A stretch of DNA of 64,000 nt from Spirochaetales bacterium (GTDB taxonomy: Bacteria; Spirochaetota; Leptospiria; Leptospirales; Leptonemataceae), in the NCBI GenBank assembly GCA_015075425.1, contig JABTUL010000001.1:1612001-1676000 (forward strand), read 5' to 3'. The position numbers were made by a program, and so were the translations under genes. The notes under the pieces are model-generated. The model saw nothing but the letters and a program-made list of their open reading frames with translations. It made no database searches and was not told the DNA's origin. Position 1 is the stretch's first letter. Every line of letters starts with the position of its first letter. Below, one piece after another: positions 26,772 to 28,772 of the stretch.

Positions 26772-26808
26772 GGGGTATCTCAGAAGTACCTTTTCTGATG
26801 AGGCAATA
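26772..26808 (+). repeat. 37-bp direct repeat, copy 1
   Basis: GGGGTATCTCAGAAGTACCT and the following 17 bases (ending GGCAATA) are identical to 28258-28294. Weaker similarity continues for about 33 bases to the right (CTAAGA..ACTATGTC against ATAAGA..ATTATGTC). An internal inverted pair TCAGAA / TTCTGA could form a small hairpin. The perfect identity without codon-pattern changes suggests a DNA element rather than a conserved protein. Confidence 0.8.
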
Positions 26809-26940
26809 GTGACTGCCGCTAAGAGCCACTATGTCCCCTTTTTCGGTGGACCCGGAGCGGACAGGTAGGCAGCAAGTTCCTAGAAGATGAAAATGGGCCG
26901 GTGGGACTCGGAAAACGGAACTATGATTCGCGAATATTGC

Positions 26941-26985
26941 CGGCAAGGGCCCTCCCTGATCGGAAGGCCTTGCCTTCTTTTTTTT
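26941..26985 (+). terminator. Intrinsic terminator in the accessory region
   Basis: GGCAAGGGCC..CTCC pairs with GGAAG..GCCTTGCC across CTGATC, followed by TTCTTTTTTTT. It insulates the short ORF and repeat locus at 27.03-27.85 kb from anything upstream on the plus strand. No complete plus-strand gene ends just before it, which again suggests loss of a gene here. Confidence 0.7.
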
Positions 26986-27029
26986 CATCCCGGTTGATTT
27001 TTTTCCTTGCCCGCCGGTGAGGAGGTGCT

Positions 27030-27095
27030 ATGAAACCTGCATGGACTTGCGGGTTATACGCCATTGGGGCCGGGTTTGCGCGGCCAAAATTTTAA
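27030..27095 (+). CDS. Short 21-codon ORF with strong ribosome binding site (truncated gene start?)
   Basis: TGAGGAGGTG lies two to three bases before ATG 27030, the strongest ribosome binding site in this region. The product (MKPAWTCGLYAIGAGFARPK plus one residue) stops at TAA 27093-27095, inside the first copy of the 26-bp repeat. It looks like the beginning of a gene whose body was replaced by repeat sequence, or a leader peptide for the tail-collar gene downstream. Confidence 0.4.
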   Translation: MKPAWTCGLYAIGAGFARPKF

Positions 27096-27110
27096 GGGGC
27101 TCGCAATCCG
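27085..27110 (+). repeat. 26-bp direct repeat, copy 1
   Basis: CAAAATTTTAAGGGGCTCGC followed by AATCCG matches 27856-27881 with one difference (C to T). The similarity weakly continues with a run of G and T on the right. The two copies bracket the 8-bp array and the tail-collar gene. Confidence 0.8.
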
Positions 27111-27125
27111 GGGGTTTTTTGCCGT

Positions 27126-27315
27126 GAATCAGAGAATCAGAGAATCAGAGAATCAGAGAATCAGAGAATCAGAGAATCAGAGAATCAGAGAATCAGAGAA
27201 TCAGAGAATCAGAGAATCAGAGAATCAGAGAATCAGAGAATCAGAGAATCAGAGAATCAGAGAATCAGAGAATCAGAGAATCAGAGAATCAGAGAATCAG
27301 AGAATCAGAGAATCA
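27126..27315 (+). repeat. Tandem array of 23.75 copies of the 8-bp unit GAATCAGA
   Basis: From 27126 the unit GAATCAGA repeats without a single error for 190 bases. Because 8 is not a multiple of 3, all three frames are open in the array, each reading a permutation of ESENQRIR, and each gained or lost unit shifts the downstream frame. A frame open from TTG 27064 or GTG 27124 currently leaves the array out of frame and hits TAA at 27322. One extra unit, or two fewer, would join it to the tail-collar frame. Confidence 0.95.
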
Positions 27316-27358
27316 AATAGGTAAATATTTCTTAAAGGGCGCCGCCTTTGCGGGCGGG

Positions 27359-27847
27359 ATGTCTGCCTTCTTGGCCCTGGGCATTCTGGTGGCCCAGACA
27401 ATCAATACCTTTAGTTCCGGGGAAAGCGTTTCTTCCAGCAGGATCAACCAGAATTTCCAGATGGTGGCCCCCCCGGGCCTGGTGGCTGCCTTCATGCTGA
27501 CTTCCTGCCCGTCGGGTTGGATTGCCGCGGACGGCAGCAATGGCACGCCCGACTTGCGGGGCCGATTCATGCGGGGCCTTGATGATATGGGAACGGGAGC
27601 TGCCGGCAATGATCCGGATGGCGTGCGGGCCGTTGGAGCTGCTCAGGCGGATGCCTTTGCAAACCATAATCACAATACCGCGTATGACTACCAACGGTTT
27701 GTTGGCGGCGCAGGCAATGGGGCCGCTATCATTGCAATCTTCGGTGCCGTGGATGGGTCGGCCACTTTAACAATGAACAATACCGGTGGCAATGAAACTC
27801 GGCCCAAAAATGTGGCCCTGATTTTCTGCATGCGTAAGGATACTTGA
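27359..27847 (+). CDS. Secreted phage tail-collar-domain protein, probably phase-variable
   Basis: From ATG 27359 the product is 162 residues: a signal-like hydrophobic start (MSAFLALGILVAQT), a short linker, then a tail-collar domain (SCPSGWIAADGSNGTPDLRG, RFMRGLDDM, and the closing ETRPKNVALIFCMRK typical of the family). Upstream of this Met the frame continues back through GKYFLKGAAFAGG, which supplies the basic N-region a signal peptide needs, and into the 8-bp array, where it has no ATG, GTG or TTG. The natural start therefore seems to have been lost to, or controlled by, the repeat. Tail-collar proteins of this kind are found in phage fibres and as bacterial surface proteins. Current expression state is uncertain. 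Confidence 0.7.
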   Translation: MSAFLALGILVAQTINTFSSGESVSSSRINQNFQMVAPPGLVAAFMLTSCPSGWIAADGSNGTPDLRGRFMRGLDDMGTGAAGNDPDGVRAVGAAQADAFANHNHNTAYDYQRFVGGAGNGAAIIAIFGAVDGSATLTMNNTGGNETRPKNVALIFCMRKDT

Positions 27848-27855
27848 CCGCCATT

Positions 27856-27881
27856 CAAAATTTTAAGGGGCTTGCAATCCG
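27856..27881 (+). repeat. 26-bp direct repeat, copy 2
   Basis: CAAAATTTTAAGGGGCTTGC followed by AATCCG, nine bases after the tail-collar stop. Recombination with copy 1 at 27085 would remove both the 8-bp array and the tail-collar gene (771 bases). Confidence 0.8.
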
Positions 27882-27967
27882 CCGGTTTTGTAGCGGAAAT
27901 GACTCGAATTGACTCACCAGAAAAGTGCCTGAAAATCTCCCTGCGCCTGCCCGGGCTGCAAGAGGAT

Positions 27968-28257: not shown

Positions 28258-28294
28258 GGGGTATCTCAGAAGTACCTTTTCTGATGAGGCAATA
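28258..28294 (+). repeat. 37-bp direct repeat, copy 2
   Basis: Identical to 26772-26808, 1,486 bases away in the same orientation. It lies just downstream (in the minus-strand sense) of the zinc-ribbon gene's stop and brackets, with copy 1, the whole tail-collar locus. Confidence 0.8.
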
Positions 28295-28315
28295 TGCTAC
28301 TTCCGATAAGAACGA

Positions 28316-28772
28316 TTATGTCACTTTGAGCACAGAGGTGGCTTGAATAAACCGGCGGATCCGATTGATGTTGCGAAGCGTTTTTTTGTAATACGGCATA
28401 CCTCTTTTCCTTTTGCAGACTTTCTCCTGATGATATTCTGTGCAGCGGCAGGATTTGTTAGTGCACGTATAATATGCACGATGAATTCCAATAACACCAG
28501 TTCGGCCCAGATTTAGTTTGCGCTCTCGAGTTCCCTGGAATTTCTGCGGGCTTCCGCATTCAGGACATTTTTTTTTCGCCGGCCTTCAGGCCCGGTCCTA
28601 TTTTTCCCAGAATCTTCAGCAGAACTTCAGGGTGGTCTACATGGTGACGGATCATCCAATCCTGAATTTCCGCCAGGTTTGGAGCCGTCCGGTCCGGGTG
28701 TTCCTCCCCCTTCCGGAGACTTTCCTTGAAACGCTCTCCCAACTCCTCGATTTCCGCATCTGTGAAAAACAT
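28316..28772 (-). pseudogene. Zinc-ribbon protein split by a frameshift at an A9 tract
   Basis: ATG 28772 has AGGGGG seven bases upstream and begins a helical domain (MFFTDAEIEELGERFKESL) that ends at a TGA (28560) just after nine A (minus strand; T9 at 28568-28576). Removing one A joins it in frame to a CPECG ... CTNKSCRC zinc ribbon (containing RTGVIGIHRAYYTC) and a basic end, stopping at 28316, 151 residues in all. The ribbon with RAYYTC resembles the N-terminal region of ISKra4-like transposases. Either the gene is broken, the base count is wrong, or RNA-polymerase slippage on the A9 tract restores the frame. The assignment as a mobile-element remnant is inference. Confidence 0.6.

Follow-up and report, generated by a model that had tools for sequence, protein, structure and literature searches.

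Organization of the collar gene locus

The window, the whole 64-kb stretch of DNA analysed here, contains a gene for a tail-collar-domain protein whose 5' end is occupied by an error-free tandem array of GAATCAGA (23.75 copies, period 8, 190 bp, positions 27126–27315, forward strand). From GTG 27124 onward, the DNA reads GTGAATCA, 23 copies of GAGAATCA and then AATAGGTAAATATTTC; the array was apparently seeded by GTGAATCA. The sequence-only reading of the window had described the same 8-bp array at 23.75 copies, which was reproduced when recomputed, and had placed it immediately upstream of the collar gene. Our analysis instead places it within the 5' end of the gene, at codons 2–3 after GTG 27124. 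The features of the locus are as follows.

26974–27118, forward strand: dispersed intergenic repeat that has 84% identity with its copy at C1:172.6 kb; it holds TTG 27064 and ATG 27030, neither of which is kept in that copy
27110–27114, forward strand: GGGGG, a possible ribosome-binding site 9 nt before GTG 27124 (compare GGGGGA about 8 nt before the ATG of the paralogue L002)
27124–27126, forward strand: GTG, the most likely start codon; with the array removed it gives MNQIGKYFLKG, collinear with the ATG starts of the repeat-free paralogues L003 and L004
27124–27324, forward strand: frame of the OFF product, with GTG, ESENQRIR repeats and the stop codon TAA 27322–27324; 66 aa
27311–27847, forward strand: collar-protein frame 3' of the array, with a hydrophobic signal or anchor segment, the FSSGESVSSSRINQNF motif, the tail-collar domain, a variable centre and the NETRPKNVALIFCMRK end
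27359–27847, forward strand: ORF from an internal ATG, a rival downstream start; 162 aa, lacking the conserved N-terminal FLKGAAFAGG
27856–27889, forward strand: second partial copy of the same dispersed repeat, just after the gene, 91% identical over 34 nt

The dispersed intergenic repeat family is specific to this genome and flanks the collar gene on both sides (26974–27118, 27856–27889, 26772–26836 and 28258–28322 in the window), with further copies in L009, L012 and L071, and it looks as if the collar gene had been placed between two partial repeat copies. Farther downstream, positions 28361–28520 and beyond match sequence in at least four further sampled loci (L066, L067, L072 and L150) at 94–100% identity. 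The copy in L066 adjoins a transposase-like ORF, and the segment is probably an insertion-sequence remnant.

Rarity of the array in the genome

A whole-genome pattern search identified the array at 27126–27315 as the only one of GAATCAGA in the 4.13-Mb assembly, and no second array like it lies within the window. Octanucleotide arrays of any sequence were counted in a 1.66-Mb sample, around 40% of the genome, that deliberately included the paralogue loci; two were found, both at collar gene starts (27126–27315 and L002). The other arrays of 4- to 12-bp units not divisible by three in this sample are short, such as CGCTG x3.2 and GCCG x4.5. At the same threshold, 2 Mb of simulated first-order Markov DNA yielded no perfect array with a period of at least 4. 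Elsewhere, perfect arrays of in-frame type (15-bp x12.9; 18-bp x3.5–4.4) occur at L132:7059–7252 and L095:5454–5681 and are candidates for protein repeats. A search for copy-number variants, with one genome per species, turned up in IMG/VR only about 9 copies of GAATCAGA in an intergenic stretch of a phage contig that is unrelated (IMGVR_UViG_3300034091_000019, L231:8240–8309).

Poly-C/G tracts of at least 10 nt, likewise searched in the whole genome, are present at three places: C12 in the collar paralogue L005, an intergenic C10 (C1:679 kb), and G14 in an FkbM-type methyltransferase gene (L070:9858–10671, C1:58.9–59.7 kb). The last gene is broken by its tract, being OFF at 14 with its first part opening at 13 or 16, and from its sequence it is a candidate for another phase-variable locus. 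It has a second frameshift near the 3' end, which may reflect decay or an assembly error.

Start codon and upstream region

Entry into the array had been proposed from either TTG 27064 or GTG 27124. The two codons do share one frame, and only GTG 27124 remains credible, since TTG 27064 belongs to the dispersed intergenic repeat, whose best copy does not preserve it. ATG 27030, which is better spaced, was rejected as well: it belongs to the same repeat, is not conserved, and its frame stops after 21 codons. The array-free N-terminus from GTG 27124 lines up with MKQEIKKSFLKG and MKQELKKSFLKG of the repeat-free paralogues, and the array-free protein begins MNQIGKYFLKGAAFAGG, compared with MKQEIKKSFLKGAAFAGG in L003 and MKQELKKSFLKGAAFAGG in L004. 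With GTG 27124 as the start, the array therefore lies inside the gene. With its weak GGGGG box, GTG 27124 is not a strong start, and a promoter search upstream of the gene found no good promoter. The string TTTTGCCGTG, of which this GTG is part, is found again in a different copy of the dispersed repeat (L071), and thus GTG 27124 may derive from the repeat.

Reading frames through the array

All unit numbers from 0 to 29 were translated; the one assembled genome has 23 inserted units. At 23 units, the frame from GTG 27124 stops at TAA 27322–27324, which is the OFF state. The ORF continues to 27847, the ON state, only when the unit number is a multiple of three (0, 3, ... 21, 24, 27), so that the gain of one unit or the loss of two opens the conserved collar ORF. 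The frame arithmetic of the sequence-only reading, with its end at TAA 27322 and fusion at one unit more or two fewer, is the same as that of our frame table. Because the array contains no stop codon and is open in every forward frame, it is the exit alone that sets ON or OFF. As assembled, the collar frame is blocked upstream by TGA 27125, and none of ATG, GTG and TTG occurs within the array; therefore, the internal ATG 27359 is the only remaining common start in the collar frame before the conserved region.

The ON product carries a repeat-encoded N-terminal extension, (ESENQRIR)n, ahead of the signal segment. At 24 units it comprises about 64 residues, hydrophilic and neutral, compared with about 6–25 residues before FFKG in the relatives, and an extension of this length may hamper export.

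Repeats in the paralogues and homologues

Eight matches to the collar family were found in the genome, five of them substantial (the window gene and L002–L005), while L006/L007 and L008 are fragments. Three of the five genes carry a frame-shifting repeat directly after the start codon, each of a different sequence, and all three, read from their best starts, are OFF in the assembly and ON after the gain of one unit or the loss of two. In L002 (C2:167.9 kb), ATGT is followed by CAGAGCAG x5.1, and the conserved FLKG region comes immediately after; the 5 units leave it OFF, and 3 or 6 would turn it ON. Reading this sequence directly, we found no ATG, GTG or TTG in the collar frame between the upstream stop and the array. 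In L005 (C2:787.9 kb), ATGAGGAGCT is followed by the C12 tract, which is OFF from that ATG, with C10 or C13 being ON. A weaker TTG farther upstream, in the end of the preceding gene, would be in the ON frame at C12. The L005 gene is cut short at the 3' end and is possibly a pseudogene.

The remaining two substantial members, L003 and L004 (C2:561 kb), are a tandem pair with plain starts and no frame-shifting repeat. Their first parts are nearly identical and their variable centres differ (L066:8974–10227), making them a possible source for recombination between paralogues. Collar homologues also occur in records named Leptospiraceae and Spirochaetia, which makes the assignment to Leptospirales in the sequence-only reading plausible. 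In the 12 homologues examined, which come from six other genomes in the same family and represent related genera, the starts are ordinary and no frame-shifting repeat is near them. Repeats in three of five own genes against none of these 12 homologues give p of about 0.015 by an approximate exact test that ignores relatedness. By a rough calculation, the chance that random placement would put three of five strong repeats within 30 nt of a collar start is far below one in a million.

The collar protein and its gene context

The family is built from an N-terminal export-like segment and the conserved motifs FxxGxxxSxxxxNxNF, CPxGWxxADG, DLRGxFxRG, DAFQGHxH and ETRPxNVAL, the HxH of which resembles, we presume, the metal-binding histidines of T4 gp12. 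The centre between these motifs is highly variable, which fits the expectation for a binding tip. The designation of the product as a tail-collar-domain protein stands for the family, with Pfam Collar matched by 15 of 17 members and the C-terminal domain matching PHROGs tail collar fiber families (PHROGs 523 at 6e-16), and is weaker for the window protein itself, whose Pfam Collar match has an E value of 0.013 and falls below the gathering score. Furthermore, a profile match links the domain to solved phage short tail fibres, including T4 gp12. The AlphaFold2 monomer model of the protein is poor (pLDDT 47).

The downstream ORF of the window gene keeps the conserved residues of the family, and third-position changes dominate in comparison with L002 (0.66 vs 0.33); these two features indicate that the gene has not decayed. 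A charged and hydrophobic N-terminus, judged by eye, is conserved across the family, and the window protein is probably exported. As a putative hydrophobic export signal is combined with a C-terminal domain like the receptor-binding tip of short tail fibres, the product is probably an adhesin or a ligand-binding surface protein.

No tail-gene cluster was found among the ORFs around the three paralogue loci or in the immediate surroundings of the window gene. A phage origin was considered and rejected, the nearest phage proteins being only about 30–38% identical. In the relatives, the gene preceding the collar homologue encodes a putative lipoprotein with a weak, sub-threshold ZU5-like match, and L005 is preceded by a DUF1554 lipoprotein gene; neither of these, nor any gene beside the three paralogue loci, is a phage structural gene.

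A proposed switch and the alternatives

A long perfect tandem repeat whose unit is not a multiple of three thus lies inside coding sequence, and changes in unit number open and close a conserved ORF in the window gene and in its paralogues. We are fairly confident that the locus is a translational phase-variation switch, controlling an export-bound tail-collar protein that belongs to a small paralogue set with three independently switchable members. Slipped-strand mispairing in the array would add or remove 8-bp units, and, because eight is not a multiple of three, each change would move ribosomes starting at GTG 27124 into another exit frame. One frame in three would yield the exported tail-collar protein, and the other two would stop a few codons past the array; the assembled genome would be OFF at 23 units and ON at 21 or 24. 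With three paralogues switching independently, a mixed population would be produced. Speaking against the switch, MutS is present in the genome and would damp mononucleotide slippage, but it has little effect on 8-bp units. From their sequences, the genes are best taken for a small contingency family that encodes exported adhesins resembling tail tips. The contingency-locus structure proposed in the sequence-only reading gains support from the two paralogues in which unrelated repeats occupy the corresponding position and obey the same frame rule, and from the 12 homologues without repeats.

A neutral origin of the array, as a microsatellite expansion in a silenced or dying gene whose switching is not selected, is in our view unlikely. 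The proximity of mobile-element remnants and dispersed repeats to the window gene would suit it, as would the fragments L006/L007 and L008, the truncation of L005 and the GAATCAGA array between genes of the phage contig, but it conflicts with an intact and conserved downstream ORF and with three unrelated repeats at the same codon positions of three paralogues in a sample of 1.66 Mb that holds only two octamer arrays. It is quite improbable that the collar protein is produced constitutively, from ATG 27359 or a further start downstream, with the array carried along passively in the 5' untranslated region. ATG 27359 does lie in frame, and its 162-aa ORF retains the hydrophobic stretch and the whole collar domain; however, it drops KxFLKGAAFAGG, which is common to all paralogues and corresponds to the positively charged signal-peptide portion in the relatives, it has no spaced ribosome-binding site, and it would not account for two other paralogues having repeats at this very position.

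We attach very little probability to a role of the repeat in tuning protein length or mRNA translation, either through length-dependent export or through frameshifting that gives some full-length product at every unit number. As all forward frames are open, slippage of a ribosome where the array ends could bring it into the collar frame, but we noted neither a slippery heptamer nor a known frameshift signal at the array exit, and the unit sequences differ among the paralogues, which argues against a sequence-specific frameshift signal.

Comparison with known systems

The switching mechanism is well known, while the gene class and the lineage appear to be new and unreported in the open-licence literature searched. 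There we found no phase variation in Leptonema, no phase-variable simple-sequence-repeat locus of Leptospira by title or abstract, and nothing relevant by title on phase variation of collar proteins. The lineage may have independently acquired three different frame-shifting repeats, two of them octanucleotides and one a homopolymer, at matching codons in three domesticated tail-fibre-tip paralogues, giving a combinatorial ON/OFF surface repertoire that would be the first phase-variable cellular tail-collar family and the first such coding-sequence switch in this spirochaete branch, a proposal on which we are evenly divided. If true, it would widen the range of repeat-driven phase variation to include spirochaete relatives of Leptospira as well as stand-alone tail-fibre-tip proteins. 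Repeated independent gain of different repeats at the same paralogue site would be a strong sign of selection for switching, and such selection would imply a changing partner for the proteins, for example phages, predators, hosts or other microbes.

The proteins share the C-terminal collar domain, the DAFxxHxH motif and the E(T)RP..NVAL end with T4 gp12 and PHROGs 523 and 1800. Unlike phage short tail fibres, they are encoded by stand-alone cellular genes outside a tail-gene cluster, bear a putative export signal, and have about 30–35% identity to phage proteins. Among spirochaetes, the known case that we found is Treponema pallidum, which also has variable repeat tracts, the outer-membrane protein genes tprE/G/J, tp0126 and tprL being regulated by poly-G; its homopolymers lie mainly in promoters and alter transcription (PMC7864442), whereas the octamer here lies in coding sequence and would alter the frame. 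The closest precedent is tabA/tahA of Haemophilus influenzae biogroup aegyptius, a family of ten trimeric autotransporter adhesins in one genome (PMC3309571). Most of its members have simple sequence repeats that differ from gene to gene, in coding sequence or promoter, and some are out of frame in the assembly (PMC3309571). In contrast to the collar genes, tabA/tahA encode autotransporters with an outer-membrane barrel, carry mono-, di- or tetranucleotide repeats, and were compared between two strains of a human pathogen, and the octanucleotide of that organism, GCATCATC, is located in the hmw promoters (PMC3309571) and not, as here, in coding sequence.
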